From contig JAJHTX010000004.1 of NCBI GenBank assembly GCA_032164295.1, positions 372,001 to 436,000 of the forward strand: DNA of 64,000 nucleotides. The letters run 5' to 3'. Below the pieces are notes generated by a model. That model ran no database searches and was not told where the DNA came from. It saw only the letters and a list, made by a program, of their open reading frames with translations. This DNA comes from Inonotus obliquus (Eukaryota > Basidiomycota > Agaricomycetes > Hymenochaetales > Hymenochaetaceae). Each line of letters starts with the position of its first letter. The stretch's first letter is position 1. The position numbers were made by a program, and so were the translations under genes. Shown one piece after another: positions 11,973 to 64,000 of this stretch.

Positions 11973-13058
11973 GTGCTGAGGCTCAATGTAAGTATATGCT
12001 CAAGCCTCAATACGGTCGTCCTTGAAGACCCATTGAAAAGCCTACAGAAGAGGTGTAGATATCTATTAGTTTGTAAATGTATTTTTATACATTTTATTTT
12101 GCAGGCTGAACCACAGGTAAAAATGTCTTGTTGTGATCTTACTCTCATCTATGAAGAAGATGAAGAGCAAGAGAAACTATTACAGCAAGATATTGCAAAT
12201 ATAGTTGAAGAAATAGATCCTACTTATTAAGATAGATTAGTGGTCTCCTCTGATTCAGAACTTCTACCTAGTATGTGCAAGCCAGTTTAGAGGTGTGTCC
12301 TGATAATTTAGCAATTTTACAGGTGATGAGAATGATATTGTGATGTCCACACCTATCTAAGCTAGTTGCTAGCCTGCCAATAAAGTCTTGAAGTAGTGTG
12401 CTCCTTTTATAGCACTTGTCAACGATGGTCCTAGTTTACAAAGATTGAACATTAGTTTATTTGATACACTGTATGATGTTCGCAGGAACATTACAGAAAT
12501 CTCTCAATACCACTATGCTTCCATTTCACTTAGTTACACCGCTCCATGGCTCAAAAAAACTGCTGTCCAGAAGGTAACACCATGTTATCTCAACTCAAAG
12601 GAAGAGCTCAATGAACTGGCTAGAGGAATAGAGGAGTATATTGCAGATCAGAAAAAGAAGCCAAATGTTATATGTGAGGTTGTGTTTCATAACATGAATG
12701 ATGAAATAGTGATTTTCCACATTATATGAAGCCACTTTGCATGTCTGATACATTATCCATTACTTAGGATGGTCCAAAATGTTCCAATGTCTTAGCAAAT
12801 ACAATCAAGCCAACTTCGACTGCTCTGAGTACAAATCAGCAAAAGAAGATGAGTTTGGAGGAGGTCCTTGGCTCTACCATACAGGAAATCAGAAGAAACC
12901 TTGCATGTAATGAGCACCTGCAGGATGTTTGCTTGGTCCACAATGATGACAGGCATATTTGCTATAACATAACACATTATACTGATTATGCTCAAATGAT
13001 TGTAAGTCCAAAAGTTCAACACTTTATCCAATGGCATGCTGACAACATACGAAGTTGG
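11973..13058 (+). pseudogene. Broken gene of unknown function, 5' part
   Basis: Protein-like plus-strand blocks: 12100-12230 (acidic, IYEEDEEQEKLLQQDI), 12427-12729 (SLFDTLYDVRRNITEISQ..., ending in a short hydrophobic run) and about 12790-13058 (...ICYNITHYTDYAQMIVSPK.., with paired Cys/His). The last block is cut by the Ty3-A insertion at 13059; continuations lie at 24323-24428 and 27803-28152. Intervening stops may be introns or decay. The family is not recognised. Confidence 0.45.
13054..13058. repeat. Target-site duplication of Ty3-A copy 1, left
   Basis: GTTGG immediately before the 5' LTR is repeated immediately after the 3' LTR at 24323-24327. A perfect 5-bp duplication is typical for Ty3 integrases. 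Confidence 0.92.
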
Positions 13059-13101
13059 TGTTAGAAAGGTAGTATTATCCATCATTAATAAGCCAATAAC
13101 T

Positions 13102-13863
13102 ATGAGCGTCCTACGTTGGATACAAGAGCGGTTAGCGGCAGTAATACAAGTACTAGAACAGCCCATCGTTCCACCGACACCACGAAGCAATATACTACGA
13201 TGTTGCAACACGTGCCGCCCGGCTAAAGAACTAGCTGGAGGACTAATGCGAGAATTAATCAGAGAGATCACGTATGGAGACATAATGAACGGACAAGCCG
13301 ATATAATGATACGACGTCGATTTGTAGAACTAACCTACGACCCTAACCAACAAATACAAAAAGCTTATGAAAGGGAGATACGAGTATTATCCTACGACGC
13401 CGGACACTTTGTAATGATGATCGGAATACGAAACGTAGCACAGGAAGGAAGACACGAACGATGCGACGCAGCTATAGTAGATGTCGACATTGCCTACAAG
13501 CGAGACCAAGCCGGAACGAATGAGAGAACTGCATATGCTTGGGGGCATTGGATAATGAATTACATAAGTCGAGGATTACCTTATGGATATACCATAATGG
13601 AAATAAAGGTAGAACAGTACGGCGGAGTAATACACCTACAAGGAGTACAAGGGGTAAACCTACAACATGCCAGGACAACGCCAGGATATACACGAGTGCA
13701 AACTATTCGGAACTGGCTGACTGTACCACGACCGATACCAACGAGACCCGAAATACAAGGACAGATGACTCAGCAATTACCTAGAATAGCTGAATTAGAT
13801 CAAGTGCCGTTACCTATACAAGAATCAAACCTATCTGCGAGATGGTACCGCCCACTGCACTAA
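13102..13863 (+). CDS. U3-encoded CxxC protein, 5' LTR copy
   Basis: 253 codons starting MSVLRWIQERL, 43 nt inside the LTR. Residues 31-36 or so hold CCNTCR, a CxxC pair that could bind metal. A central block reads HFVMMIGIRNVAQ followed by AIVDVDIAY, and the C-terminal part has PGYTRVQ. A frame in the same place exists in LTR-D (24491-25195) and in the Ty3-C LTR (52904-53680), with shared CxxCR, GI(R/H)(N/D), VDI-like and W/Y positions. Lying in U3, this 5' copy is upstream of the LTR TATA box; the 3' LTR copy would be on the genomic RNA. The position recalls the mouse mammary tumour virus sag gene, but I see no sequence relation and propose no function. Confidence 0.72.
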   Translation: MSVLRWIQERLAAVIQVLEQPIVPPTPRSNILRCCNTCRPAKELAGGLMRELIREITYGDIMNGQADIMIRRRFVELTYDPNQQIQKAYEREIRVLSYDAGHFVMMIGIRNVAQEGRHERCDAAIVDVDIAYKRDQAGTNERTAYAWGHWIMNYISRGLPYGYTIMEIKVEQYGGVIHLQGVQGVNLQHARTTPGYTRVQTIRNWLTVPRPIPTRPEIQGQMTQQLPRIAELDQVPLPIQESNLSARWYRPLH

Positions 13864-14010
13864 ACTAATCAAAGAGAGGCTAGTAATACAGAGGTAGTGA
13901 AATGAGGAAGGAAGTAAAGAGAAAGCACGGACCAGGTATCATGGAGGAAGAAACAGATAAATACCATAAACAGTAAGTAACAAGGTAGTAACGTCACACA
14001 TGTAAATTAG

Positions 14011-14054
14011 TATATAAGGAGGCCATCGTAGAGCCGACCTAGCAGTTTAATCCA
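14011..14054 (+). promoter_or_regulatory. LTR core promoter and predicted 11-nt self-primer
   Basis: TATATAA lies at 14011-14017, followed about 30 nt on by AGTTTAATCCA (14044-14054). This 11-mer is the exact reverse complement of the primer-binding site at 14515-14525. In Tf1 of fission yeast the first 11 nt of the RNA pair with the primer-binding site and are cleaved to prime reverse transcription; the distance from TATA places the transcription start at about 14044, so the match fits that model. LTR-D keeps the same TATA-to-primer block (27271-27314). Confidence 0.75.
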
Positions 14055-14514
14055 AGTCAAGGGACCCTACCATAAGTCCCTAAGTTAAATCGTAACATCA
14101 ATTACTTGCGAGCCAGTAAATTACCAGTAGCGACACGGCTGAACTGAACCGATTGTGTGAAATCGAAGTGAAGCTAAAATACGGATTGCAACTAAATTGT
14201 TCTCCCTATTGTCTGCACGGTACGAGCTACTCACAACGTAGTGCGATTCCCGATATTCCCTTATCGTGAATAACAATCAGTATAACAATCGCGTATTCCC
14301 GCCGACTTAATACTGTACGATTATAGTATCAGGTTCAACTGCAATATTAGTTAGTTGCTAGTTGTTTCAGATCGGATCAGCTACACAGTCCACTAAGGTG
14401 ATTAGCAATTCCATAACCAGTATTGTAGAATTTGGATTAACCCCTCAAACAGAGGAATTAGCCAGATTGGTCCGTCGATCAAGAATCAACGAACCCTCCA
14501 CGGAGATAAACATC

Positions 14515-14525
14515 TGGATTAAACT
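14515..14525 (+). promoter_or_regulatory. Primer-binding site of Ty3-A
   Basis: TGGATTAAACT begins 2 nt after the 5' LTR. It pairs over exactly 11 nt with 14044-14054 in R, and the pairing stops on both sides. TGG could also fit a tRNA 3' CCA end, but the internal match to the predicted RNA start favours self-priming. Confidence 0.75.
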
Positions 14526-14574
14526 CCCTTCTTGGCAAGCTTAAAGGAACAAGCGCAGACTATTGCCAATAAAG

Positions 14575-14639
14575 GTAATTGTGATAGCACGAACTAGTCA
14601 TTCAAATAGACTGATTGAATAATTCCCTTATCCAATCAG
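14575..14639 (+). other. Candidate intron in the Ty3-A leader (65 nt)
   Basis: AAAG|GTAATT ... CCAATCAG|TAGG. Removing it joins an open frame from 14523 (SLKEQAQTIANK) to the 129-codon frame (VGHLERQIDISNN), giving a continuous coiled-coil-like reading. No ATG is present on either side. Supported only by splice-site shape and frame. Confidence 0.35.
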
Positions 14640-14993
14640 TAGGCCACCTGGAACGGCAAATAGACATCAGTAACAACCACCGAAACCTAGAACCACAGGT
14701 CGGGTTAACATTGGAGCGTGCAAAACAAACGCAGGAACGAGAACAAGGAGCGCCGAAGGATATAGACGCGTGGAAGCTAATAGCGAGGCAACCAATTTGG
14801 CAAGATCTCTACTGGGATCATTTCAAGACAGGAAGGGTTATAGGCAAAGTATCACCTACACCGCACGAAAGTGTATTTAAGAGAGCACTAGAAAACGGAG
14901 GAGGAACGTTGTACTCCGCGCAAGCACACGCCAACCTATTACACCGAATACTACTAGCCCTACTCAACGGAAAGAAAGAGAAAGCAAAAGCAA
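14640..14993 (+). CDS. Leader ORF of Ty3-A without ATG
   Basis: The frame is open from 14615 to the TAA at 15002-15004 and has no Met codon. The product would be charged, with DAWKLIARQPIWQDLYWD and a Lys-rich end (KKEKAKASKV). It is in the same frame as the pre-gag ORF and would fuse to it if the intron at 14994-15041 is removed. Whether it is translated, by non-AUG initiation or after an upstream splice, cannot be told; it may be only a 5' UTR exon. Confidence 0.35.
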
Positions 14994-15041
14994 GTAAAGT
15001 ATAAGCGCAAAAACCGAATATATAATTAAATATAACTATAG
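14994..15041 (+). other. Candidate intron whose removal creates a start codon (48 nt)
   Basis: The donor is CAA|GTAAAGT and the acceptor AACTATAG|TGGC, with TATAAC or TTAAAT as possible branch points. The exon ends in A and the next exon starts TG, so splicing makes ATG GCT TAC, in frame with the 530-codon pre-gag ORF. It would be the first ATG of the mRNA, because the leader has none. The intron length is typical for fungi. Evidence is splice-site shape, frame and the created ATG; no transcript data. Confidence 0.6.
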
Positions 15042-16633
15042 TGGCTTACGAAGGAATATACGCGGGGCTGGTTACAGTATTCATATTTGGTACGATCTAC
15101 TATAGGACAGCGATCGCAAGTGCGCTCAGACGAGGAACAAGACTACTTCAATACCTGTCTATTTACGAACCCTACGCAACGCAGTGGGGGATATATCACT
15201 ACTCAACTGCCATTGGAACGCAAGTGGACCGATTGGCCGGAAGGATCGAACTAATCCTCAACACACAGGCTGAAAAGGATCAAGCGTTGGGAGTGTACCT
15301 AGACCATCAGTTCAATCAACATATCGAGAAACATAGCCGCTGGCACAGGAGTAACGACGAGGCACACCATATCACCAGAACGTTAGTAAGGTACAACCAG
15401 ACAGAGCTAGGCATCCTCAGGACAATAACGAGAGAAGTACAACACACCTTCGAGACGCTACAGCGAAGACAAGAAGAGCACATAGAACGGTGGACTGCCC
15501 GAGAACACCGAGACGCCGAATTTCAGCGCGAATTATTAGATAAAGTAAGCCGCATCGAGACAAACTTCCTACGCCTAAGGAATCAAGTATCGGATATCAG
15601 AGTCGCACTCGCCGCGTGGGAAGGAGAAGAAAGACAGCGAGAGGAAGCGGAAATCCAACAAGACTGGAACACCGTCGGATCGTTATTAGGAGACGATCAA
15701 GATCAACCAACGCCGGAACTAACTCAGTCCGAAGCCAGTTGGGAATCACCGAACGAATCGGAGCATAACGGAGGAGAGTGGGGAACAGGAAGCCGTTGGG
15801 CAAATTCAGAGCCAAACGGGTTTAGGGACTTCAACGGAGACGAAAGTTACAGGCACCCAGACTCGCCAATTCCCACTATTCCAGACGAGGAACCGGAAGA
15901 AGGAGAGATACAATTACACGTAGTCGACTTCAGGGCCCAGAACGAAAGTGAGAACCTAACTACCATCACGGAAGAAGAAGAAGGCATTAACCAAGAAAGT
16001 AGTACCTCCGGGATTACATTTGATAACGGGAGAAGACTACCAAGCGGCATTAACGTTACTCGAGATCAGGCAGGGAACGTCCGCATAGACCTGCGAGGAT
16101 TGGCTAGGTTAAACATAAACGAGATAGTCGAGGAAGTAATTACAGAGCTACAAGAAGAACTAAAACCGACAAACGAACAAATCCCAACAATAACCATTAG
16201 TCGCAAATATCATCGAAAAGCAGATCAGGACAGAATAGCTAAAGGAATCATAGGTCGAATCCGAGAACAAAGGGAAGCAAACAATAGGAAAGAAGAAACC
16301 AGAGAAGTCCAGAAAACCGAACGAGAACAGGGGATCATTGAAGAGGTAGAAACAAGAGGAAGGTTGGTATTGTACTATTCCCCAGGATCCACGACCAGTG
16401 GTAATTCAGAAGAATTCTCCAGCCCATTCAGCGACGTTAGTCAAGCCCACAGTAGCAATACCACAGAAGACGAATATCTAGAAGACAATTATCGAAGGCA
16501 TTTAGCGTTACTAGAATTCGACCCGGCAGAACTCGAAATCTCGGAACAAGAACTGAGAGACCGATTGACTTGGGATTCAAGCGAAGATGACGAGCCTACA
16601 AATGAGTATGTCGCAGAAACCACCGAAGTTTAG
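15042..16633 (+). CDS. Pre-gag membrane/coiled-coil protein of Ty3-A
   Basis: About 530 codons without a single ATG; unspliced, the frame would begin at GTG (15041). Residues 6-22 (IYAGLVTVFIFGTIYY) are hydrophobic and followed by Arg residues, like a signal anchor. About residues 60-200 are charged and coiled-coil-like (REVQHTFETLQRRQEEH...). A Glu/Asp/Asn-rich region follows at about 210-300, then a basic stretch near 385-430. The last 47 nt overlap the start of gag in another frame. Ty3-C has a coiled-coil ORF in the same place, also lacking internal Met codons. The likely start is the ATG made by removing 14994-15041. No domain is recognised; the length and position are unlike any standard Ty3 gene. 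Confidence 0.7.
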
Positions 16634-17525
16634 AGGAAGAGATAAGGAGAACGTGGATGTATTTATAAATAAAATGATTAGTAATTTTGCATGGATGGAT
16701 GCGCAAAATCAGAGTAACAAACAAGCGGCACTAACAGATAGTAACAAAGCCTATATCATGTGCCAATGCATGGAAGAGAAGGCTGCCACGTGGGTAAGCA
16801 CAGCGTTAAAAACAAATCCGCTAGATATGATAGGAAAAGGGCAAGTATGGGAAACGTTTGAAGAATTCTTAACCTACATAAGGAGTAACCACAAACAATA
16901 CTATGACCCTGTAGAAGACGCAACGAATAAATTAGTAAATATTGTACAAGAAGGCTCCATATTGCAGTACAATAGTGATTTCGGAAAGATAGTATCAGAA
17001 TTAGATAAGGCAGTATGGCCGGATAAGGCACTTACAGTATTATACAGAAGAGGGATGAAAGATTATATTTATGCGCAGTTAGCAGGACAAACGGAAAGCG
17101 CGAAATGGACGCTAGCAAACTGGATGAGCCGAGCAGTAGCACTAGAAGGCGCAAGATATGGCGCCAAGGCAAGAACTAAGACCTTCACGAGCAACTGGGA
17201 AAAACCCCAGAGGAGAAAAGACGATGTAGTCCCAATGGACGTAGACGTACGAAAATTCAGGAAGAGGACTAATAAAGGAAAACCCAGGTACCGGAGTAAC
17301 CAAAAACCGAAGAATACGACGGGTTGTTACAGATGTGGTAAACCAGGTCACATTGCCAGAGAATGCAGAGTGAAACCACGAGAAGGAAAACCTCCGAGTA
17401 GACCGGGCTATCAAAAATTCAAGAGAAGATTGATAGGAGAAGAATCGGAATATGAAGGCTCCAACGAGGCTAGCGATAACGAGAAAGAAAGAGAACCTAA
17501 AGAGGATTTTCAAGAAAGCGACTGA
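16587..17525 (+). CDS. gag: Gag polyprotein of Ty3-A
   Basis: 312 residues. It forms the retrotransposon particle and binds RNA. The start is the first ATG downstream of the promoter and has A at -3; further in-frame ATGs follow at 16602 and 16608. After the N-terminal PPKFRGRDKENVDVF comes a capsid-like helical region with conserved Trp residues (ATWVST, WETFEEFL), then a basic segment and one CCHC zinc knuckle, CYRCGKPGHIAREC (residues about 247-260). The C-terminus is acidic. pol follows in the -1 frame, its open frame overlapping the last 25 nt of gag. Confidence 0.93.
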   Translation: MTSLQMSMSQKPPKFRGRDKENVDVFINKMISNFAWMDAQNQSNKQAALTDSNKAYIMCQCMEEKAATWVSTALKTNPLDMIGKGQVWETFEEFLTYIRSNHKQYYDPVEDATNKLVNIVQEGSILQYNSDFGKIVSELDKAVWPDKALTVLYRRGMKDYIYAQLAGQTESAKWTLANWMSRAVALEGARYGAKARTKTFTSNWEKPQRRKDDVVPMDVDVRKFRKRTNKGKPRYRSNQKPKNTTGCYRCGKPGHIARECRVKPREGKPPSRPGYQKFKRRLIGEESEYEGSNEASDNEKEREPKEDFQESD

Positions 17526-20500
17526 TCGAATCGGCTGATCAGCGCGCAAGAAAAGGGACCATAACGAAACCAGAAGGAAGATGGTCGCGGGTAAAAGCGA
17601 AATGGAAACGCCGATGGACGACCCCGGTAAAACCAAATACCGATCATCCAAAACTGAGGATATACCTCAGTCAGGGGGGAAAGAGAAACCTGCCAATAAC
17701 AGCAATGATCGACTCAGGATCAGTATTAACAACGATTAGTCCTAATACCGTCAAACGATATGGACTAGATACAATAAAGAAACAGAATCCTGCCCAAATT
17801 AGAAATGCAGATGGAACACTAACGAATAACGGGTGGAAGGAAAGCGTTAGAGCATGGGTGGATACCGGAGCATCAAAAGGAAATATGGAACTCGCAGTAG
17901 TAGAAACTACAGGAGACAAATTTTTATTAGGAAATGATTGGATAGCTAACTATAAGCCAGTCATAAACTGGGAAACGGGTAAGGTAACAACTAGATTTGG
18001 GGAAGCCAAATTGTTAGGAACTCGGAATATGATAACGATGGAAAGAATGGCTCGATATCAACAAAAAAGAAGAAGAAAATCCCGTAGGATTAGATCTCCA
18101 CTGCGAAGAGACTCCGAAGAAGGGTCCGAATCCGAAGGAGACACGGGATTAACAATAAGGTGGAATACCATGGGAAAGGCAAGCTTAGGGAATTTACCGA
18201 CACCACCACCAAGGTCCGTACAAACCGCGGTGATTGTGGTGCCTCCAGAAGGAATACGGCCAACCACACTAACGCCTAAGGATGTCACAGTATTGCCAGC
18301 ACCAGTAATGCAGTATAGGGAGTCGCAAGAAGGAATCGAATCCGACCCAGAGGAAGTCGAAGAAATAGAAGAAACTACGGAAGAAAGGGACGAATTCCAA
18401 GAACAAATCTTGAGAAACTTTGGGAAATTAGCTGAAGAACTGCAAAGACTAGAGGAAACAAATCTCGAAGACCCGCCGAGATCACCAGAAAGAACGGAAA
18501 TAGCACTCCCAAGCATAGAACAAATAATATCCGGGGAAACACCGAGTAAAAGATTACCACCGCAACCACCGCCAAAGATGCACCAAGTAGGGCAAGGCGG
18601 AAGTAGAATAACTAGAGAGAGGAAAACGAGTTACCAAAAGGCCCGGGAAAACAAAACTAAACCAGAAGAAGTGGTATACGACCGAAACATGAGAATAACT
18701 GTACAGGTAAACGATCAAAAACCCCAAAACCGAGACTATAGCCGAAACAGCAGGATGAAAAAGGAAAGGACCGAGCAGGAAACAACCGCAATTAAGAAAT
18801 TAAATAAGTATAGCAGTATGGCACAAAAGTACTCCCAAGAAAAAGCAAGGGAACAAGGACGATCACAAATAGGAACGACTAAGCATTGGAAATCCTTGGT
18901 GCCTAAGGAGCTATGGGATTTCGGGGAAATATTTAGCGAGAACAATTCAAAACGATTACCAAAGCACAATCAATGGGATATGAAAATAGTGTTTAAAGAA
19001 GGACAGGAACCGACAGCGAAACGAACCATTTATCCGCTAACGCCACTAGAACAAAAAGCAGTGGAAGAATTCATAGAAGACAATTTGGCAAAAGGATGGA
19101 TCAGGAGATCCACTTCAAAGTACGCAATGCCGGTATTCTTCGTCGGAAAGAAGGATGCAGGGGCAAGAATGGTAATAGATTACCGACCAGTAAATGCAGT
19201 TTGTGAAGTAGATCAATACCCGATACCCATTATGCACACGCTACCCGACAATTTGGGAAAGGCCAAATGGTTCACCACGCTAGACCTTCGGTCAGGATAC
19301 AATAATATACGAATCCAAGAAGGAGACGAACATAAGGCCGCATTCCGAACACATAAAGGAGTATTTGAACCATTGGTAATGCAATTCGGAATGATGAATT
19401 CGCCAGCAGTCTTTCAACGAGCTATGAACGAACTATTTGGAGACATGTTGAACCATGGGGTGATGATTTATCTAGATGACATCATTATCTATGCTGAAAC
19501 AAAGGAAGAACTGTTACAAAAGACGAGGAAGGTACTAGCTCGAATACGAAGAGCAGACTTCTATCTGAAACCGGAAAAATGCTTCTTTAACAAGCAAGAA
19601 TTAGACTACCTGGGATTCATAGTAAACAAGGACGGATTAAAAATGGACCCGTACAAACTCAAAGCAATAGAAGAATGGCCGGTACCACAAAACAAACGAG
19701 ATATAAAGAAATTTACAGGATTTTGTAATTTCTATAGGAAATTTGTCAAGGACTATGCAGCAATAGCAAGGCCGATGAAGAAACTAGAATCCAAGAAACA
19801 AGCCTTTGTATGGGGAGAAGAGCAACAAAGGTCGTTTGAAGCCCTGAAAAAGGCCGTAATCACAGGACCAATACTAAGAAGACCAGACTATGACAAAGCC
19901 TTCGTAGTAGAAACAGATGCGTCGGACTATGGCATGGGAGCAGTATTATCACAAGAACACGAAGGAAAACTACATCCTATTGCCTATCTCACGAGATCCT
20001 TTACAACAACTGAAAGGAACTGGCCAGTATCCGAAAAGGAACTGTACGCAATTGTAATCGCCCTAACTACTTGGAGACACCATTTAGAAGGAGCGAAACA
20101 TACTATCTTGGTACTATGCGACGCGTTGAACCTGAAGACCTTCATGAAAGCGCAACGAGTCGGACGAAAACAGGCCCGATGGGTCACGGACGTACTAAGT
20201 AGATATCAATTCAAAATCGATTATCGACCAGGAAGCAAGAACACGAGAGCCGATGCGCTATCCAGAAGATCAGGATATGACGAAGGAAAGAATGATAACA
20301 AGGACGTGATCGTATTACCAAGCGAGAGATTCGTCAACCCAAAAATCTTTGATCGACAAGCTAGAAACAGCACAAGCGAGGGAATGGTACCACCAAACGA
20401 TAAATTAATACCCGGACAGGACCGGAAAAGAGATGTATTATATACCTTCCACGACTCACCAATGAGCGGGCATCCAGGAACAGACAAGACGATAGCGGCA

Positions 20501-22066
20501 ATAGAAGAAATCTATTGGTGGCCGAGTATGAAAGAAGAAATTAGGGAATACGTTGCCTCATGCCACATTTGTCAAAAGAACAAACCTAGGAGGGGACGAA
20601 CACAACCACCGCTGAAACCATTGGAAATACCAACGGGACCATGGAAACATATCACCATGGATTTCATTACAGGACTTCCAGAAAGTGAGGGCTGTGATGC
20701 GGTACTAGTGGTAGTAGACCGGTTTTCAAAAATAGCAACGTTTATTCCCTGTACTAAAGAAACAGACAGTAAGAAAACAGCGAAGATGCTATTGGACCAC
20801 GTATTCACGAAACACGGACTACCAGAAAGAATTACTAGCGACAGAGGCCCACAGTTTACAAGCAACTTTACACAAGAAGTATATAAAGCCATGAATATTG
20901 ACAATGCGCTTAGCACGGCACATCACCCACAAACAGATGGGCAAAGCGAAAGAGTAAACCAGGAACTAGAACAATACCTAAGGCATTACGTAAACACAGC
21001 GCAAGATAACTGGGCGCAGTACATCCACATGGCAGAGTTTGCTTATAATAATAGAGTACACGCAGCAATAAAGAAGTCACCATTTGAACTCCTTTATGGA
21101 AGAAAATTGGAAATATTGCCCATGGGGCAAGCGAACGCACCAGACGCACAAGAATATATTAAAAAGGTATGGGAGATACAGAAACAAGCAGAACAAGCGC
21201 TGATGGCGTCAAACGAACAAATGAAGAGATACACCGATAAACATAGGAGAGCAGAATTAGAATTCAAGGTAGGAGATAAGGTAATGATAGATGCTAGAAA
21301 CTACAATATAGTAGTACCCAGCCGAAAGATAGGGCCGAAGAATTTAGGACCATATAGAATAATCAAACAACATGGGCCATTGAATTACGAACTAGAATTA
21401 CCAAAGAAGATGCGCATACATCCAGTATTATATGCAGGCAATCTTATTAAATATCAAGATAGAATAGTAGATAACACCACGGAAGACCAAGAAGTACCTT
21501 CGAATCCAGTCATTGTAGAGGACGACGAATACGAAGTAGAAAGAGTACTAAATTCAAGGAAAACAGGACGGAAATATTACTTCTTAATAAATTGGAAGGG
21601 ATACGGGGCAGAACACGATTCATGGGAGCCATTAGGGAACCTAGGAAACGCCACGGAAAAGATCGAGGAATACTATCAGAAACACCCACAAGCGGAGAAA
21701 CCAAATTACATCGACGGATGGATTAGAAGGAATAACGAAAACGAAGAGAAAGGAAAACGAACAGCCAAGAGAAGGATGATAAATACCAGGAACCCGATAA
21801 AAATAAAGGATTTCGCGTATAACGAAAATAACCCATTACACACCAATCCTAGTGGTTCATCGAGAACGGATAATCTAGAAGAAACATACCAGAGAGTCCA
21901 AAGTCCACTATCCAAGGAACAACATTGGGAGGAAGACGACGACAACATCAGGAGGAATCCTGATCATGCCATAAAAGGAAATAAGAACGGAGGCCGCATC
22001 CGGCAAAGAAGTAGACGGTTAACGAAGCGGAAACCTACGGGTTCACACGAGGAACAGGGTATATAA
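17501..22066 (+). CDS. pol: Pol polyprotein of Ty3-A: protease, RT, RNase H, integrase, chromodomain
   Basis: The frame is open from 17501 (TAA at 17498-17500) in -1 relative to gag, whose stop is at 17523; the first ATG is at 17705. Counting from that ATG (1453 residues): protease active site IDSG at 2-5; a Glu/Pro-rich linker; reverse transcriptase with YLDD at 589-592; RNase H with ETD at 736-738; integrase HHCC near 916-950 and catalytic D986, D1046 and E1082 (D,D35E); chromodomain about 1275-1325 (YEVERVLNSRKTGRKYYF, WKGY..WEP); and a basic C-terminal tail. Expression is expected by -1 frameshifting as Gag-Pol, but the overlap holds no canonical X XXY YYZ heptamer. All catalytic residues examined are present. 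Confidence 0.93.
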   Translation, partial: RGFSRKRLIESADQRARKGTITKPEGRWSRVKAKWKRRWTTPVKPNTDHPKLRIYLSQGGKRNLPITAMIDSGSVLTTISPNTVKRYGLDTIKKQNPAQIRNADGTLTNNGWKESVRAWVDTGASKGNMELAVVETTGDKFLLGNDWIANYKPVINWETGKVTTRFGEAKLLGTRNMITMERMARYQQKRRRKSRRIRSPLRRDSEEGSESEGDTGLTIRWNTMGKASLGNLPTPPPRSVQTAVIVVPPEGIRPTTLTPKDVTVLPAPVMQYRESQEGIESDPEEVEEIEETTEERDEFQEQILRNFGKLAEELQRLEETNLEDPPRSPERTEIALPSIEQIISGETPSKRLPPQPPPKMHQVGQGGSRITRERKTSYQKARENKTKPEEVVYDRNMRITVQVNDQKPQNRDYSRNSRMKKERTEQETTAIKKLNKYSSMAQKYSQEKAREQGRSQIGTTKHWKSLVPKELWDFGEIFSENNSKRLPKHNQWDMKIVFKEGQEPTAKRTIYPLTPLEQKAVEEFIEDNLAKGWIRRSTSKYAMPVFFVGKKDAGARMVIDYRPVNAVCEVDQYPIPIMHTLPDNLGKAKWFTTLDLRSGYNNIRIQEGDEHKAAFRTHKGVFEPLVMQFGMMNSPAVFQRAMNELFGDMLNHGVMIYLDDIIIYAETKEELLQKTRKVLARIRRADFYLKPEKCFFNKQELDYLGFIVNKDGLKMDPYKLKAIEEWPVPQNKRDIKKFTGFCNFYRKFVKDYAAIARPMKKLESKKQAFVWGEEQQRSFEALKKAVITGPILRRPDYDKAFVVETDASDYGMGAVLSQEHEGKLHPIAYLTRSFTTTERNWPVSEKELYAIVIALTTWRHHLEGAKHTILVLCDALNLKTFMKAQRVGRKQARWVTDVLSRYQFKIDYRPGSKNTRADALSRRSGYDEGKNDNKDVIVLPSERFVNPKIFDRQARNSTSEGMVPPNDKLIPGQDRKRDVLYTFHDSPMSGHPGTDKTIAAIEEIYWWPSMKEEIREYVASCHICQKNKPRRGRTQPPLKPLEIPTGPWKHITMDFITGLPESEGCDAVLVVVDRFSKIATFIPCTKETDSKKTAKMLLDHVFTKHGLPERITSDRGPQFTSNFTQEVYKAMNIDNALSTAHHPQTDGQSERVNQELEQYLRHYVNTAQDNWAQYIHMAEFAYNNRVHAAIKKSPFELLYGRKLEILPMGQANAPDAQEYIKKVWEIQKQAEQALMASNEQMKRYTDKHRRAELEFKVGDKVMIDARNYNIVVPSRKIGPKNLGPYRIIKQHGPLNYELELPKKMRIHPVLYAGNLIKYQDRIVDNTTEDQEVPSNPVIVEDDEYEVERVLNSRKTGRKYYFLINWKGYGAEHDSWEPLGNLGNATEKIEEYYQKHPQAEKPNYIDGWIRRNNENEEKGKRTAKRRMINTRNPIKIKDFAYNENNPLHTNPSGSSRTDNLEETYQRVQSPLSKEQHWEEDDDNIRRNPDHAIKGNKNGGRIRQRSRRLTKRKPTGSHEEQGI

Positions 22067-22160
22067 AGAAAAGAGTCGCCGACGAGATACCAGTATCCTT
22101 ATCAATTCCTTGCACCACCGCCATCAAAACCCTAAACACGAATACCAACGCCGAACGAAA

Positions 22161-22782
22161 ATGTCGAAAACCGTAGAACTCGTACTCGCGATAGTAGCGT
22201 TTGGATTGGTAATCATGATAAGTCTGATAATACAATGGAGAATGCAATTTTGGATATGGAGACAGGTGCGCAGTCATTACAATAGAGAGGTAGCAACCGT
22301 TAACCAGCTATCAGGAATTAAATCACCCGCCTGAAGAAGGCGTAGACCAAAACCCGATAGCGTTTGCGCACGGAAATGAAGATGAAGATGAAGAGGAAGA
22401 TGAAGATGACGATTACATCCCGATGCCGTTCATCCCCTGGCCAACCGAGCAACAAATGGCGCAAGAAGAAGAACTATGGGCAAACGTAACAGCGCCCTCA
22501 AATGAAGATTGGGGAGACATCTCTACGTGGGGAGCAAGCTGGTCAGCAGCGAACGACCCAGATCACGAAACGTTCTGGACGGACGACGAGTTTATTTGGG
22601 ACAACTGGACGCCGGAACAATTAAACGAAATCTACGAGATAAGAAGGACCGCGAGAGAACAAATGAGAAACGAGTTAGTAAATCGAGCAGCGCTGGAGAG
22701 AGCGCTAGAAGAAGAACAGAACGCAGACGACGAAATATGGGTGGACATTCAGTTATGGTCGTCAAATGTAGAGGAATTTTAG
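22161..22782 (+). CDS. Env-position membrane-anchored acidic protein of Ty3-A (two exons)
   Basis: Exons are 22161-22265 and 22315-22782, about 190 residues. MSKTVELVLAI begins a hydrophobic segment of about 20 residues (6-26), followed by aromatic and basic residues (QWRMQFWIWRQ). Exon 2 supplies a Glu/Asp run encoded by GAA/GAT repeats (22378-22412) and a Trp/Glu-rich tail ending VEEF. Without splicing the first frame stops at 22334 and the second has no ATG upstream of its acidic run. Lying between pol and the 3' LTR, it occupies the env position, but it is far too small for a fusion glycoprotein and lacks a visible secretory cleavage site. Ty3-C has a larger protein of the same plan (54112-54876). 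Confidence 0.65.
22266..22314 (+). other. Candidate 49-nt intron in the env-position gene
   Basis: CAG|GTGCGC ... GTTAACCAGCTATCAG|GAA. TTAAC, 12 nt from the acceptor, is a good fungal branch point. Its removal joins the membrane segment in frame to the acidic tail. Confidence 0.6.
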
Positions 22783-22857
22783 CTCAAAATGGGCTTAAGA
22801 ATTATGAATAAAGAATATGTGTCATGCATTCCTTATGATTATGTCAGATGCATTCCT

Positions 22858-22868
22858 AGAAGGGGGAG
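22858..22868 (+). promoter_or_regulatory. Polypurine tract of Ty3-A
   Basis: AGAAGGGGGAG directly before the 3' LTR, the expected plus-strand primer. Confidence 0.88.
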
Positions 22869-24322
22869 TGTTAGAAAGGTAGTATTATCCATCATTAATA
22901 AGCCAATAACTATGAGCGTCCTACGTTGGATACAAGAGCGGTTAGCGGCAGTAATACAAGTACTAGAACAGCCCATCGTTCCACCGACACCACGAAGCAA
23001 TATACTACGATGTTGCAACACGTGCCGCCCGGCTAAAGAACTAGCTGGAGGACTAATGCGAGAATTAATCAGAGAGATCACGTATGGAGACATAATGAAC
23101 GGACAAGCCGATATAATGATACGACGTCGATTTGTAGAACTAACCTACGACCCTAACCAACAAATACAAAAAGCTTATGAAAGGGAGATACGAGTATTAT
23201 CCTACGACGCCGGACACTTTGTAATGATGATCGGAATACGAAACGTAGCACAGGAAGGAAGACACGAACGATGCGACGCAGCTATAGTAGATGTCGACAT
23301 TGCCTACAAGCGAGACCAAGCCGGAACGAATGAGAGAACTGCATATGCTTGGGGGCATTGGATAATGAATTACATAAGTCGAGGATTACCTTATGGATAT
23401 ACCATAATGGAAATAAAGGTAGAACAGTACGGCGGAGTAATACACCTACAAGGAGTACAAGGGGTAAACCTACAACATGCCAGGACAACGCCAGGATATA
23501 CACGAGTGCAAACTATTCGGAACTGGCTGACTGTACCACGACCGATACCAACGAGACCCGAAATACAAGGACAGATGACTCAGCAATTACCTAGAATAGC
23601 TGAATTAGATCAAGTGCCGTTACCTATACAAGAATCAAACCTATCTGCGAGATGGTACCGCCCACTGCACTAAACTAATCAAAGAGAGGCTAGTAATACA
23701 GAGGTAGTGAAATGAGGAAGGAAGTAAAGAGAAAGCACGGACCAGGTATCATGGAGGAAGAAACAGATAAATACCATAAACAGTAAGTAACAAGGTAGTA
23801 ACGTCACACATGTAAATTAGTATATAAGGAGGCCATCGTAGAGCCGACCTAGCAGTTTAATCCAAGTCAAGGGACCCTACCATAAGTCCCTAAGTTAAAT
23901 CGTAACATCAATTACTTGCGAGCCAGTAAATTACCAGTAGCGACACGGCTGAACTGAACCGATTGTGTGAAATCGAAGTGAAGCTAAAATACGGATTGCA
24001 ACTAAATTGTTCTCCCTATTGTCTGCACGGTACGAGCTACTCACAACGTAGTGCGATTCCCGATATTCCCTTATCGTGAATAACAATCAGTATAACAATC
24101 GCGTATTCCCGCCGACTTAATACTGTACGATTATAGTATCAGGTTCAACTGCAATATTAGTTAGTTGCTAGTTGTTTCAGATCGGATCAGCTACACAGTC
24201 CACTAAGGTGATTAGCAATTCCATAACCAGTATTGTAGAATTTGGATTAACCCCTCAAACAGAGGAATTAGCCAGATTGGTCCGTCGATCAAGAATCAAC
24301 GAACCCTCCACGGAGATAAACA
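22869..24322 (+). repeat. 3' LTR of Ty3-A copy 1
   Basis: 1454 bp, offset 9810 from the 5' LTR. I found no substitution between the two by eye, and the encoded U3 proteins are identical. The TATA box is at 23821-23827. Followed by the target duplication GTTGG (24323-24327). Confidence 0.93.
22912..23673 (+). CDS. U3-encoded CxxC protein, 3' LTR copy
   Basis: Identical to the 5' LTR copy (253 residues, MSVLRWIQERL start). This is the copy that genomic RNA started in the 5' LTR would carry as its last ORF. The frame also stays open upstream into the polypurine tract region (from 22789), so a longer form is possible; the ATG at 22912 is preferred because it lies in the LTR and matches the position in LTR-D. 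Confidence 0.72.
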   Translation: MSVLRWIQERLAAVIQVLEQPIVPPTPRSNILRCCNTCRPAKELAGGLMRELIREITYGDIMNGQADIMIRRRFVELTYDPNQQIQKAYEREIRVLSYDAGHFVMMIGIRNVAQEGRHERCDAAIVDVDIAYKRDQAGTNERTAYAWGHWIMNYISRGLPYGYTIMEIKVEQYGGVIHLQGVQGVNLQHARTTPGYTRVQTIRNWLTVPRPIPTRPEIQGQMTQQLPRIAELDQVPLPIQESNLSARWYRPLH

Positions 24323-24428
24323 GTTGGCAGGTACACCAGGTGTGATGTTCAGAGAGGTCCCTAGTCAACTCAAGTTACTCAACTATTTAAAACTGACAAG
24401 AAGGGAAATACTACGTACCTCTAGTAAT
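24323..24428 (+). pseudogene. Middle fragment of the broken gene, between two LTR insertions
   Basis: 106 bases between the 3' LTR of Ty3-A and LTR-D. One frame reads GTPGVMFREVPSQLKLLNYL, continuing to SSN. It is not in phase with the end of the block at 13058, so an intron or a frameshift lies there; it continues in phase into 27803, after a TAG. Confidence 0.45.
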
Positions 24429-24490: not shown

Positions 24491-25195
24491 ATGAATTGGA
24501 TACAGGAAAGGTTGAATGCGGTTACACAAGTACTACAATAGCCTTTAATACCAGCAACACCGAGATCAGGAGTGTTACAGTATTGTAGTACATGTAGACC
24601 AGCACACAAGATAGCAGAGAAGCTACTCCGAGAGATACTGAAGAAATTAACATACTCAGCAATCATTAAAGGACAATCAGACATTATGATTAAGAGACAA
24701 TTCATTGTAATGAACTATGAACCAAATACAACTGTACAGAAGGCTTATGAACAAGAAGTCAGATTACTCTCATTCAATAATCATTACTTCCTAATGGCAA
24801 TAGGAATATGGAACATTGCTTCAGAACAAGACAATCACCAATGTAATGTAGCAGTACTGGACATCGACATTCCATACAGAAGTGAACCTGAAGGTATAGC
24901 AAGAGAGTCAGCCTATAAGTGGACTGAATACCTAGTCCGAAGGCTTAAACAATTACTGACAGGAGGAAGAACAGTTGTAGAAGTAAAGGAAGATCAACAT
25001 GGAGGAATAATAAGGATCAAAGAAATCCGAGGCAGATCACTAGCAGATATAGCAGTAGCACCAGGATACACTAGAGTGCAGCAGGTGATTAATAATATTG
25101 ACACACCTAAAGCAATAACATTACCAAGATGGCGAAATGTAGAAACACAGACAGAGCCAATGCAAGCATCAGTATTGCACATGATCCAAGTATAG
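24491..25195 (+). pseudogene. U3-encoded CxxC protein of LTR-D, one nonsense codon
   Basis: The start MNWIQERLNAVTQVL lies 62 nt inside the LTR and matches the Ty3-A protein start. Codon 17 is TAG (24539-24541) where Ty3-A has CAG, a single C-to-T change. After it the frame is open for 218 codons with YCSTCRPAHKIAEKLLREI, an ALGIW-type block (AIGIWNIA), VLDIDIPY and PGYTRVQ, all aligned with Ty3-A. Many changes are conservative, so the protein was probably maintained before this copy died. Confidence 0.72.
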
Positions 25196-47675: not shown

Positions 47676-47761
47676 CTCCCCCTTCTAGGAATGCATCTGA
47701 CATAATCATAAGGAATGCATGACACATATTCTTTATTCATAATTCTTAAGCCCATTTTGAG

Positions 47762-49745: not shown

Positions 49746-49839
49746 TTTCGTTCGGCGTTGGTATTCGTGTTTAGGGTTTTGATGGCGGTGGTGCAAGGAA
49801 TTGATAAGGATACTGGTATCTCGTCGGCGACTCTTTTCT

Positions 49840-53680: not shown

Positions 53681-53740
53681 CCGGGGTAGTTTCGATCGAC
53701 GTTCCTAATCGAATCAAAATTTCAGCACAATCCTTTCACT

Positions 53741-59600: not shown

Positions 59601-62040
59601 TTCATCAGCTCATCTACGTGGTTGTCCAGTGCTTCCTGTTCGACTGGCGTGAGCTTGATAATAGGTCGTGGTTTCGGTAACGGTTCCTTCTCATCGAGGT
59701 GTATGACCATGTCATACTTCGTATGTCTTGGTAGTCGTCTTGCCCTGTCTGGATCGAATACGTCCGCATAGTCTGCTATCTGCCTTGGTAGCAGTTTGCG
59801 CCAATCTCGTTTCTGCGTGTCTAGCAATCCCTCTGCTGCTGCTTTCTGCTGCGAGTATTGCTGCGCTACTGAGCTAACCTTGTTCAATGGTTGCTTCTCT
59901 TGGCGATGCTGTCGATTCGTATTTGGTGACCAATTTCGTTTGATCTCAAACATTTCTGCGAGATCCTCCTTTTGCAGTAAGGGTTTTGATTTACCTCGAG
60001 CCTCGGTGGCGAGATACGCTATTCGTTGCTGAATAGGTGATGGTTCGTTGGTTACCATACGTTCGATATGCATTTCTTCTTGAGGTTGGGTTCCTCCTGG
60101 TTCTTGCAGTTCGTCCATAACTTCGTCTTGATCCGTGTGCTCCCACCTTGTTCTTTTCGGTGCGGGGCTTCGTGTTCGTGTACTTCCTGTACTATCGATA
60201 GACTGTCTTCGCCGATGTCCTAGTATCGGTTTGTCTTCGAATCGTTCCTTTCGTGGCATAATCCATGTGCCTTTCGGATCAAAGTTTCCTACGGCTTCTT
60301 CTCCTTCTCGAAGATAACCTTTCCAGTACTTGAATGTAGGGTCTTCCTTGACTACTCGTGGTTTCGTTGTCTTCCGTTCGACTGACGGTGACTCTTGTCT
60401 TCGCTTTCCTAGCGATGTCGTACTCGGTTGCAAGGGCTTATTGCGACTGCCTTGACTCTGTACTCGTGTATCAGGTCTTTCTGCCTGTTCATTCCCGAAT
60501 CTTGATATAGGCGATCTTGATTCGTCTTCGGGCCTTATTGGTACTGCCCAGTCTTGTCGAGTCTTATTGCCAATGCTCTGACTAGACTGCAAAGTCTTAT
60601 TGGCGCTGCTTTGTCTTGGTGCGTTCGACGTTCGTTCACCTTCTGGCGTCCGTGCTCTCTTCCTTGGAGCATTGCTGAATTGACTTCCTGATCGTGGTCT
60701 AATTCTCGGTGGTGAAACGTTCCTTGTTTCGTTTCTCGTCGATCGGCTTTCGCTTCGGTTTCTGCCTTCTCTAGGGTGGTCGTCCTTTTGCCTTTCCTTC
60801 GTGTTGAGGTCTGGCCTAATCCATATTCCACTATCGTTGTCGCTATCGCTGTCGGTTTCTGAGTTGTCAGATGAGCCGGATCCAGGGCTCTTCGTAGCTT
60901 TAGCTTTCGTCTTCCTGCCATAGGCTGTCTTGCGCGTAACAGGTGATTTACTATCCAACGGCAACGTCTTATTGGTACTGCGTTGACTGTTCAAGGGCTT
61001 ATTGCCAATGCCTTGTGGTTTCGGTCGTTGATCGTCTCGACTCTTCAAGGTCTTATTGCGACTGCCTTGTGCCTGCTTGGTCTTATTGCCACTGCCATGC
61101 TGCGATCGTTGATCTACTTGTGGAACCTTTCGTTTCTCTGTCTTGTATAGAGCTTTCGATGTCTTCGTGCCTTCGTCTTGGGTAATGGCTCCTTCATTCC
61201 CGTACCAGGATGGTCGCTCCTGACTAGTCGCCTCTCCTATTCGATTGGGCCTAGCTTTCCTTCGTTGTTCGCGATTACAACTGTTATCCTGATCGTCCAC
61301 CGATTTGCGCTTGTCGGTTACCAGATTTCCCTTTGGTCCGTTGACGCTTGGGTCGTTTCGTGTAGCCTTATTGCCATTGCTACTCTGGTTCGATCGTAAG
61401 GTCTTATTGACTCTGCCTTTCGTAGCCTTATTGCCATTGCTACCCCGCCGTTCGGTCTTATTGGTGCTGCCTGAACGCGGTGAGGGCTTATTGGTTCTGC
61501 CTCTACGATTACGGTTTGTACTTTTCCGTTTTCGTTTCCGTTTCTTGCTTGTCGACTCTGCTCGAACGATACTGAGCTCGAATGGTATCGTTTGTCCATT
61601 TCCTTCCATGACTTGTTCCTTCCAATCGATGATCGGGTTGGCCTTGCCCAAATAATCGATGCCTAGTATGATCTGATCGGTTCCCGTATGTGCGACTGCC
61701 AGAGTTTGACCGATGGGCTTGATTCCGTCAAATATAAGTGCGTCCACTTCGTACTTGATTGCTCCTTTTCGGTTTGCTGTTCCATCTGCATTTCGCAACG
61801 GTCTAGGTTGTGATAGCGTTCGTCGTGGTAAGTCGTGTTTCCGTACTAACTCCGGATGAATAGTACTGCATGTTGCTCCTGAGTCGATAAGTGCTTTGAC
61901 TGCTAAGGTTTGCGTTCCCACAAGAATCTTGATAGGCAATCTTGGGTGTAATGCATATGTCGGTAATCCTTTACTGTACATTTCTTCGCAATCCTTCTTA
62001 CCCTCTCGCTTCGCAGTCTTGAGCGGAGGTGCTAGTCTTT
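56630..62040 (-). CDS. pol: Pol polyprotein of Ty3-C with one in-frame TGA
   Basis: The frame enters from gag by -1 shift near 62040; the first ATG is at 61981. Counting from it: protease ALIDSGAT (D33); a long Ser/Asn/Lys/Arg-rich linker (about 150-600) with many NKT and NKP repeats; reverse transcriptase with YLDD near 925; RNase H (ETDASKFAIG). At 58255-58253 a TGA follows PILRTI. The same frame then continues KDYATKEAQTEW into integrase (HHCC; DLVTD, LSDRGSNF, DGQTERLNQ) and chromodomain (YLVRWKGYAETTWEP). The TGA may be a CGA-to-TGA mutation or a readthrough point. Without readthrough this copy makes no integrase. Confidence 0.85.
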
Positions 62041-63147
62041 TCCCTGACCTTGTGCCTTAGCCTTTCCTTTGTTAGGCTTCTGGTCGCGTGGTTTGGGATT
62101 GACGTTTCGCTTGTTCGTATGATCGTCGTCTTCTTCTTCCTCGGATTCGGCTTCTTGAATTCTCGCGTGCATGGTTCTTCTATTCTTCTTGTGATGCTTC
62201 GACGATCTTCCACGTGCTCCTTTAGACGTGTTTGGTCGACGATGTTGGCGGTGATTACCTAGTGCTCCTTTAGACGTAGGTGATCTTCTCGGTTCGGGGC
62301 ATTTGCTTGCATAGTGACCCTGTCTTCCGCAATTGTAACATCCTGATGATCCCTTCTTCGGCAAGCCTCGGATTGCATCGATGTCCATTGCGTTCGGATC
62401 CCTTTCTAGTCTTGTAGGCTGCTCGTACCTCGGTTGTCCATGAAATGAATACCGCGGTTGATATGTTCCTTGCGTGAGCTGAGCCTTTGTCTTGTTCATG
62501 ACTGCATATTGCTCCGTTATTGCCATCCATTCTTCGTATCCGAATTTCGTGAATGCTTCCATGTCGTGTGCGAGTACGCGATTGATAAGCCATTGATCCA
62601 ATCCTTTGATGTAGCAGTGCTTGATCGTATTCTCGTCCACTGTGCTTGCAATCTTCGTTCGTAGTTGCCTGAACGCGTGATTGTAACTCTCGATAGGTTT
62701 GCTGGCCTGTTTGATATTGAATATCTTGTTCAGGGCCTCGAGTTCTTGTGGAACGGTTTTGCCTGCTTTGGTACGGATGAATTGAATCATATCCCTGAGT
62801 GATGCGAACATAGCGGTAGGAGGTTTCGCAACCGCTCCTGCTGCATCTACGACGGTAGGTAAGCTCTTGAGTGCTCCGGTGGTAGCGTCGAATGATACGG
62901 TGAGTTGCTTTTCGAGGAACCAATTGAATGCATCTCCCTCGATAGCTAGGAATAGCGCGTTCGCAATTTCCTTCTCGTCCTTAATTCCGTTTGACACTAA
63001 TTTCGCCACACTCCTGTCTACCCATTGATCGATACTTTCGTCTCGTGCGCCTAGAAACTTTGGTAGTTTGATCGACAATCTTGCCATTCGACTAGTAAGC
63101 TCATTGATCCGAGCTTGTAGTTGATCTGGTGTTGGAGGTGTTGCCAT
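62032..63147 (-). CDS. gag: Gag polyprotein of Ty3-C
   Basis: 371 residues. The start ATG has A at -3 and G at +4. A helical N-terminus precedes LSIKLPKFLGARDESID, which matches PPKFRGRDKENVD of Ty3-A gag. One CCHC knuckle, CYNCGRQGHYASKC (about residue 270). The C-terminus is acidic, then basic. The first 47 nt overlap the pre-gag ORF, the same overlap length as in Ty3-A. Confidence 0.9.
   Translation of the reverse strand: MATPPTPDQLQARINELTSRMARLSIKLPKFLGARDESIDQWVDRSVAKLVSNGIKDEKEIANALFLAIEGDAFNWFLEKQLTVSFDATTGALKSLPTVVDAAGAVAKPPTAMFASLRDMIQFIRTKAGKTVPQELEALNKIFNIKQASKPIESYNHAFRQLRTKIASTVDENTIKHCYIKGLDQWLINRVLAHDMEAFTKFGYEEWMAITEQYAVMNKTKAQLTQGTYQPRYSFHGQPRYEQPTRLERDPNAMDIDAIRGLPKKGSSGCYNCGRQGHYASKCPEPRRSPTSKGALGNHRQHRRPNTSKGARGRSSKHHKKNRRTMHARIQEAESEEEEDDDHTNKRNVNPKPRDQKPNKGKAKAQGQGKD
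62038..62044 (-). promoter_or_regulatory. Candidate -1 frameshift heptamer in Ty3-C
   Basis: GGGAAAA in phase as G GGA AAA, followed by GAC and the gag stop TAG (62034-62032). It fits X XXY YYZ. The -1 frame is open from here into protease (KRLAPPLKTAKRE). Any downstream stimulatory structure was not assessed. Confidence 0.65.
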
Positions 63148-64000
63148 TGTCGGTAAATGCTACTACGCGAGGTGGTCTGATCGGTAATAGAGTTGTCTCG
63201 AATGTCTCAACGATTGGTACGCTTGTCTGTACGCCGCTTGATACTGTCGCGGGTTCTTCTTCCAATGTCAAGTTACGGATCCTTGTCAAGACTTCTTCGA
63301 TCTGTTCACGTGGAATGAAGGTGAACTGTTCGATGTGCGTTTCGCCTGAGTCTATCGATTCGTTACTTTCCAATGACCTTTGGATTTCGTTGCGTGTCTC
63401 TTGAATGCGTTGAGTTGTTTCGATGTGTTCTCTCTGGATGTTTCCGATTAACTCTGTGAGTTGCTGGTACTGGTCGTCGAGCTTCTTGTTCTGCTCTTCT
63501 AGCTGATTTGTTCTATCAACGAGTCCGTTGATTAACGTTCGTTCGACGAAGAAACGATGTCTTGTCGATTGCTCGAATTCCTCGAGATCCTTGGCTAGTC
63601 CAGATACTGTAACTCCTTCTCCTGTAGCGGTTTGCTCTGCCTGGAGATTAGACCTCTGTAAGTTTGCTGGCGTGCTTCCTGCGATAACGTTGTCTTGGAG
63701 TCCTTCGACGGCTGCTATAATTCTTCTCGTTAAGAATTTGATTTCGTCGATTTCGATTTGACGTTGTTCCTCGTGGATCTCCAATAACTCTTGTCTGTTG
63801 TGTTGTGCGATCACTTGTCTTTCGAGTGTCGCGATCCTTGCTAGGGTTTCGTATTCCCTTGTCAACTCTCGTGCTTGTCTTGCATTTCGATTGCTGCCTC
63901 GACGTTCTGGCTGTTCTTGTGTGTCGTTGCGTGGACCTCTTGGTAGGTTGCTTCGACCGTTACTACGTCGTTGATGTTGCATATATCGATAAGCGAATTG
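63101..64000 (-). CDS. Pre-gag coiled-coil protein of Ty3-C (partial)
   Basis: Open from the window edge to the stop at 63101. The first visible ATG is at 63982 (MQHQRRSNG), with a weak context (T at -3), and the frame stays open upstream of it. After that there is no Met codon in 292 residues, and only one out-of-frame ATG (63885) in the region down to gag. The protein is Glu/Gln/Arg-rich with heptad-like stretches (NRQELLEIHEEQRQIEIDE). Position, composition, Met absence and the 47-nt gag overlap parallel the Ty3-A pre-gag ORF. The N-terminus lies outside the window. Confidence 0.68.
   Translation of the reverse strand, partial: QFAYRYMQHQRRSNGRSNLPRGPRNDTQEQPERRGSNRNARQARELTREYETLARIATLERQVIAQHNRQELLEIHEEQRQIEIDEIKFLTRRIIAAVEGLQDNVIAGSTPANLQRSNLQAEQTATGEGVTVSGLAKDLEEFEQSTRHRFFVERTLINGLVDRTNQLEEQNKKLDDQYQQLTELIGNIQREHIETTQRIQETRNEIQRSLESNESIDSGETHIEQFTFIPREQIEEVLTRIRNLTLEEEPATVSSGVQTSVPIVETFETTLLPIRPPRVVAFTDNGNTSNTRSTTSSDQ

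Follow-up and report, generated by a model that had tools for sequence, protein, structure and literature searches.

In rice tungro bacilliform virus (RTBV) leaky scanning extends over about 900 nucleotides (nt), through open reading frames (ORFs) without internal AUGs, and ORF I starts at AUU (PMC5902531); badnaviruses likewise have long leader ORFs that lack internal AUGs (PMC5902531). Here we describe a related arrangement in a chromovirus (a Ty3/gypsy retrotransposon with a chromodomain, Metaviridae) of the fungus Inonotus obliquus, found at 13059-24322 on the plus strand of the window, by which we mean the whole analysed stretch of 64,000 nt (assembly GCA_032164295.1, contig JAJHTX010000004.1, forward-strand positions 372,001 to 436,000). 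Between its promoter and gag lies a zone of about 2.5 kb that contains two protein-coding frames and not a single ATG. The observation is common to the copies of this family (family 1) and to its relatives (families 2 and 3), and it bears marks of selection; we consider it likely that selection keeps the leader AUG-free for scanning to gag, and that the two leader ORFs, A and B, start at non-AUG codons.

Ogre elements of plants carry an ORF1 upstream of gag, and murine leukaemia virus makes glyco-Gag, which has a membrane segment, from a CUG in its leader, upstream of the gag AUG. The MDG1-group Ty3 elements of Drosophila (412, mdg1, blood) are described in a preprint as carrying two ORFs, sORF1 and sORF2, upstream of gag (PMC11952523). 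An extra ORF0 upstream of gag is reported for the plant elements Retrosat2, RIRE3 and RIRE8 (PMC3485330), a paper whose main text contains neither 'ATG' nor 'start codon'; and a figure legend assigns to fungal and plant chromoviruses an additional ORF of unknown function, its position unstated there (PMC2864245). In Tf1, as described in PMC7175516, 11 nt at the RNA 5' end are complementary to the primer site.

The initial annotation had reported that no ATG occurs from just before the TATA box to gag, and the count bears this out: 14001-16586 is empty in all frames, the flanking ATGs being at 13842, 13902, 13941 and 14000 and then at 16587. This gap of 2,587 nt is the longest between the 1,193 plus-strand ATGs of the window, the next longest measuring 535 nt (23810-24345, mostly R-U5 of the 3' long terminal repeat, LTR). 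The expectation of about 40 given in that annotation holds for base composition alone and drops to 24 once dinucleotide content is considered. Under a first-order model ATG is the most depleted of the 64 trinucleotides in the zone (0 against 24.3, z -4.9); CAT is not clearly depleted (31 against 37.8 expected), nor are the near-cognate codons CTG, GTG, TTG and ACG, which stand at or above expectation. Each part of the zone is empty by itself (R-U5, 0 against 6.8 expected; A, 0 against 2.8; B, 0 against 11.5), whereas U3, directly upstream, holds 21 ATGs against 17.8 expected, so the change in ATG density falls at the promoter. The limits of the zone agree with the promoter and the gag ATG, as had been claimed, and with the probable RNA 5' end at 14044. 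The proposed comparison with codon-matched sequence gave the same picture: 2,000 synonymous shuffles of the 520 codons of B before gag had a mean of 11.3 ATGs and never fewer than 4, and shuffles of A had a mean of 2.5, with 3% at zero. Chance or base composition as the cause is rejected on the dinucleotide expectation of about 24. Two ATG-free runs were also seen on the minus strand, of 779 nt (48042-48821) and 762 nt (42256-43018), in copies of another repeat family. The positions of all features are collected in Table 1.

Table 1. Features of the chromovirus and of the neighbouring family 3 element, in window coordinates
Feature	Position	Strand	Basis or remark
ATG-free leader, 2,543 nt (probable extent)	14044..16586	+	0 ATG against 23.9 expected
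Putative RNA 5' end and self-primer, AGTTTAATCCA	14044..14054	+	perfectly complementary over 11 nt to the primer-binding site at 14515
Primer-binding site, TGGATTAAACT, self-priming	14515..14525	+	complementarity to 14044
Splice-donor-like site AAAG/GTAATT (family 2 AAG/GTAACT), conserved; role putative	14575..14580	+	alignment
Leader ORF A, 129 codons, no Met	14615..15004	+	conserved from about codon 15 (14657)
Candidate 48-nt intron A/GTAAAG...ATAG/TG; removal would give AUG-GCU-UAC at the B start	14994..15041	+	sequence alignment
Proposed B start GTG, A at -3, G at +4	15041..15043	+	ATAGTGGCTTAC unchanged in family 2
Leader ORF B, 530 codons, no internal Met	15041..16633	+	dN/dS, homology
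Target-site duplication GTTGG	13054..13058 (5' copy); 24323-24327 (3' copy)	.	sequence reading
5' LTR, 1,454 bp, TGTTAG...AACA	13059..14512	+	identical to 22869-24322
TATA box TATATAA	14011..14017	+	flanks conserved in family 2
gag	16587..17525	+	Pfam Ty3_capsid 1.1e-9 and zinc knuckle
pol: protease, reverse transcriptase, RNase H, integrase, chromodomain (in that order)	17501..22066	+	Pfam
Polypurine tract, AGAAGGGGGAG	22858..22868	+	sequence reading
3' LTR	22869..24322	+	LTR identity
Family 3 leader ORF, overlaps gag, runs past window edge; weak-context ATG 63982	63101..64000	-	leader comparison
Family 3 gag, ATG 63147, strong context ACA-ATG-G (A at -3, G at +4)	62032..63147	-	

Both leader ORFs encode conserved proteins and, by their substitution pattern, are real genes. 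The 530-codon open frame noted in the initial annotation is B, which runs for 535 codons from stop to stop (15026-16633) and for 530 from its GTG, overlapping gag by 47 nt in a different frame; ORF A, a second conserved ATG-less frame, had been missed. The ratio of non-synonymous to synonymous substitution (dN/dS), estimated approximately in the 14 full copies by dividing the distinct differences from the window copy by the numbers of sites, uncorrected for multiple hits, is 0.18 for A, 0.16 for B and 0.19 for gag, against 0.93-2.12 in the other frames of A and B (1.2-1.7 in those of A). B lacks an internal stop in 15 of its 16 long matches, the window's own counted, and family 2 carries homologues of both proteins, with 31% identity for A and 34% for B (copy L039; the second family 2 copy, L040, contains a stop and was omitted from the B protein alignment). 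Conservation of B begins at GTG GCT TAC, within 12 nt that families 1 and 2 share without change. The A-tract between the stop of A and the start of B varies in length, and not by multiples of three, which suggests that this spacer is probably untranslated. In B the N-terminus is hydrophobic, with a best 19-residue mean of 1.60 (borderline) for family 1 and of 2.15 for family 2, and the C-terminal part is acidic; from its sequence B looks like a membrane-anchored accessory protein. A Pfam search returned no match for A or B, a protein search with B that scored 7,991 candidates found none at E 0.01, and a fold prediction for A was uninformative (mean predicted local distance difference test score, pLDDT, 43.7).

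A genome search, giving a lower bound, yielded 14 full leaders of family 1, namely the window copy (L001) and L002-L014. Nine of them have no ATG and five have one each, private to the copy and always at a different place; none has several, the outcome that had been named beforehand as contrary to the initial interpretation. Three partial copies outside the 14 have one ATG in two pieces (L036) or none (L037, L038). Among private substitutions in the leader, 5 of 89 create an ATG, with 4.7 expected; among substitutions shared between copies none of 77 does so, with 4.2 expected (P 0.0145). Shared substitutions elsewhere show no such deficit (U3, 3 of 45 against 2.5 expected; gag, 1 of 16 against 0.9). 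Private substitutions are presumably mostly post-insertion, and shared ones have presumably passed through replication. The copies thus form a natural mutation experiment, in which new ATGs arise privately at the expected rate and none is common to copies, and they support the earlier proposal of selection for scanning to gag through a coding leader, the scanning itself being a reading of the sequence.

Related families show the same avoidance of ATG. The Gag of family 2 (L039) is 55% identical to that of family 1, and its leader has 2 ATGs against 24.0 expected; the decayed copy L040, in which T and A are enriched at the sites of difference, carries 8 (26.9 expected). Seven of these are private, and the eighth, at a position that reads ACG in the window copy, occurs in L039 as well. 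For the distant family 3 two leaders could be compared over their full length. That of the minus-strand element with its gag ATG at 63147 spans 1,780 nt and carries 2 ATGs where 14.5 are expected; the other carries 2 where 15.8 are expected. One ATG is common to both; it stands in a weak context (T at -3, C at +4) and opens a 293-codon ORF overlapping gag. A search for the 25-mer around it that tolerated up to 3 mismatches found 17 places, all 17 of them identical; 15 of the 17 have the ORF without a stop, and between two copies the ORF shows 13 synonymous and 2 non-synonymous differences. Since the weak start comes first and the strong gag start second, the layout is as expected of leaky scanning. 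In one family 3 copy (G000 C6:2507452-2508345) the leader ORF lies within an open frame of 1,700 codons, not 301. A further locus (C12:688110, L065; gag match 31%) gave no usable leader and was dropped.

The RNA probably starts at 14044, which would make the leader 2,543 nt long; we take this from the complementarity of 14044 and 14515, by analogy with Tf1. The sequence AGTTTAATCCA sits about 30 nt past the TATA box, and a match of 11 nt was reached in 6 of 5,000 shuffled primer sites. Family 2 has the same 11-nt pair (13 nt in its second copy), and family 3 a different self-priming pair of 16 nt (0 of 5,000 shuffles). Given a start at 14044, the RNA 5' end is complementary to the primer site, as in self-priming elements of the Tf1/sushi type, in which RNase H cleavage after the 11th base makes the primer. 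Families 1 and 2 look more alike over 14515-14600, including AAAG/GTAATTGTG, than in much of the leader; this segment is possibly a packaging signal or a major splice donor.

We propose that 14044-16586 would be the transcribed leader of a self-priming chromovirus and would serve two ends, coding for A and B and carrying small ribosomal subunits, as they scan, from the cap as far as gag. The gag ATG (context GAAG-ATG-A) is the first ATG of an RNA so started. In any leader frame an AUG would engage scanning ribosomes and leave gag short of them, and for this reason AUGs, the in-frame Met codons of A and B included, would have been removed by selection. A minority of ribosomes, as we infer from sequence, would start at non-AUG codons and the remainder would reach the AUG at 16587; B would most likely start at the GUG at 15041, with its A at -3 and G at +4, and A at some near-cognate codon. 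That scanning would be linear as far as gag is suggested by the loss of ATGs from all frames, even downstream of the B start.

Several observations weigh against this proposal. Shared changes likewise produce no TAG (P 0.013) and no GAT (P 0.024), and the comparison of private with shared substitutions has P 0.062 by Fisher's test, which makes the filtering test a modest one. As a start codon GUG is usually weak, no start codon could be fixed for A, and an AUG made by splicing would explain B equally well. Weak structure aiding scanning was tried as an explanation and rejected, the leader being at least as structured (-15.9 kcal/mol per 100 nt) as gag (-15.6) or pol (-14.6). Finally, family 2 keeps one out-of-frame ATG in both copies (in L039 it opens a 30-codon ORF that ends before gag), and each of the two family 3 leaders holds one further, private ATG.

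Among other explanations the strongest, which we hold to be possible but rather unlikely, is that splicing supplies the start AUG of B, the unspliced RNA giving Gag and the spliced RNA giving B. The sites of the candidate intron, A/GTAAAG...TAG/TG, recur in all 14 full copies of family 1, enclosing 47-54 nt, and A/GTAAGG...TAG/TG, enclosing 48 nt, in both copies of family 2, where CTAAT and CTGAT offer possible branch sites; the ATAG before the TG is conserved more than a GUG start requires, and the intron would take in the stop of A and the A-tract of variable length. However, in family 1 no CTRAY branch site was seen (the matching place reads CGAAT, or CAAAT in 2 of the 14 copies), the donors of the two families do not align together, and the intron was found post hoc. 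It would also leave A unexplained, and the lack of AUGs downstream in B would still need scanning. An AUG of this origin was considered for A as well and rejected, since the first 60 codons of ORF A, checked by eye in the window copy and in L039, showed no in-frame GTG with an A before it. With still less conviction we entertain a scheme in which one capped RNA would give at least three proteins by 2.5-kb scanning, B and Gag being switched by a splice-made start (removal of the 48-nt intron to give AUG-GCU).

It is improbable, in our judgement, that gag is reached by internal entry, shunting or a spliced mRNA and that ATGs are missing as a side effect of composition or protein content. The leader is indeed T-poor and A-rich (A 35.9%, T 18.8%, G 23.1%), a conserved donor-like site follows the primer site, and related pararetroviruses shunt over part of their leader (PMC5902531); but the dinucleotide model still predicts its 24 ATGs and leaves CAT near expectation, synonymous shuffles of B never lose their ATGs, out-of-frame ATGs are absent too, and ATG is avoided by shared substitutions and not by private ones. 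Very little speaks for a fusion of B and Gag by frameshifting within the 47-nt overlap, like a displaced glyco-Gag: an overlap of 47 nt with gag is seen both for B in family 1 and for the leader ORF of family 3, but the family 2 B stops at 3748, short of the gag ATG at 3772 (coordinates of the family 2 copy), so the overlap is not conserved and the fusion is rejected as a conserved feature on family 2 gene order. We give next to no credence to a non-coding leader whose open frames arose by chance in stop-poor, A-rich sequence, since the missing Pfam matches for A and B, the missing protein match for B and the absence of ATG from both are outweighed by a substitution pattern that contradicts it, with gag-like dN/dS values, homologous frames in family 2 and conservation of B from its proposed first codon on.

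The rest of the element conforms to a chromovirus, with a Ty3-type Gag, the order of domains in pol, which lies in a separate frame from gag, and two identical LTRs flanked by GTTGG (BLAST matches 13058-14512 to 22868-24322 at 100%, one chance G being joined at the edge). A protein search with gag gave 2 relatives at E 0.001 among 421 candidates, and with pol the highest-identity named match among the 120 matches listed was from Sanghuangporus sanghuang (52%); a search of viral contigs with gag and an Rfam scan of the sequence returned nothing useful. The U3 of the LTRs encodes an ORF of its own (285-296 codons in family 1, dN/dS about 0.17; seen at 13006-13863, 22783-23673, 24542-25195 and, on the minus strand, 52904-53704), with likely homologues in families 2 and 3 that have CxxC in common. 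It lies at the RNA 3' end, a position reminiscent of nef or sag; its predicted fold is of low confidence (49.4), and a structure search of the PDB gave 0 matches at E 0.001. Two overlapping ORFs, the first with a strong hydrophobic segment, lie between pol and the 3' LTR (22023-22782), in the position of env, and would probably need splicing. A second family 1 copy lies on the minus strand at 46222-52154 and continues at C4:441253; the family 3 element of Table 1 is inserted into its pol at 52154/52155, and it also holds a repeat of another family at about 48061-49419.

Placed beside the described systems, the element resembles the Tf1/sushi chromoviruses in its chromodomain pol and in the 11-nt complementarity between the presumed RNA 5' end and the primer site; it differs from them in its separate gag and pol frames, and we know of no coding AUG-free leader in Tf1. 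With Retrosat2, RIRE3, RIRE8 and Ogre it shares, in gene order, an extra ORF before gag in a Ty3-type element. Glyco-Gag is in frame with gag, whereas B lies in another frame and is not an in-frame extension. The MDG1 group, likened here by description, comes nearest in gene order: it also has two conserved ORFs between promoter and gag, as A and then B are here, and MDG1 sORF2 is a membrane protein; those ORFs are of about 110 codons each and came from a canonical-start search, a size not matched by the 530 codons of B, which has no AUG. The initial annotation had called the arrangement one that its author did not know from described Ty3 elements. That stands for the combination and its length, and not for the components, since long leader ORFs free of internal AUGs in RTBV and badnaviruses, one of them starting at AUU, and pre-gag ORFs of MDG1 elements were already known. 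An AUG-free coding leader in an LTR retrotransposon was not found among the titles and abstract openings listed by searches of open-licence papers, which is weak evidence of novelty. Gene finders that demand an ATG would miss proteins such as A and B, which may therefore be overlooked in other elements, and the leader offers a test bed for the scanning distance of fungal ribosomes and the initiation strength of GUG in a good context.

RTBV has no LTRs, its ribosomes first shunt over a structured leader, and its ORF II has an AUG. In common with the present element, RTBV and the badnaviruses (Caulimoviridae) are reverse-transcribing, and in them most ribosomes scan past upstream ORFs (PMC5902531), which makes the RTBV mechanism the nearest to the one proposed here; long upstream ORFs without internal AUGs and under coding constraint are found here too, with both leader ORFs AUG-less and a distance of 2,543 nt in place of about 900. 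The translation strategy itself is already known, and what we did not find described is its combination and length in an LTR retrotransposon. If our reading is correct, polycistronic scanning of the RTBV type would extend to LTR retrotransposons, over a leader almost three times as long, of 2.5 kb.

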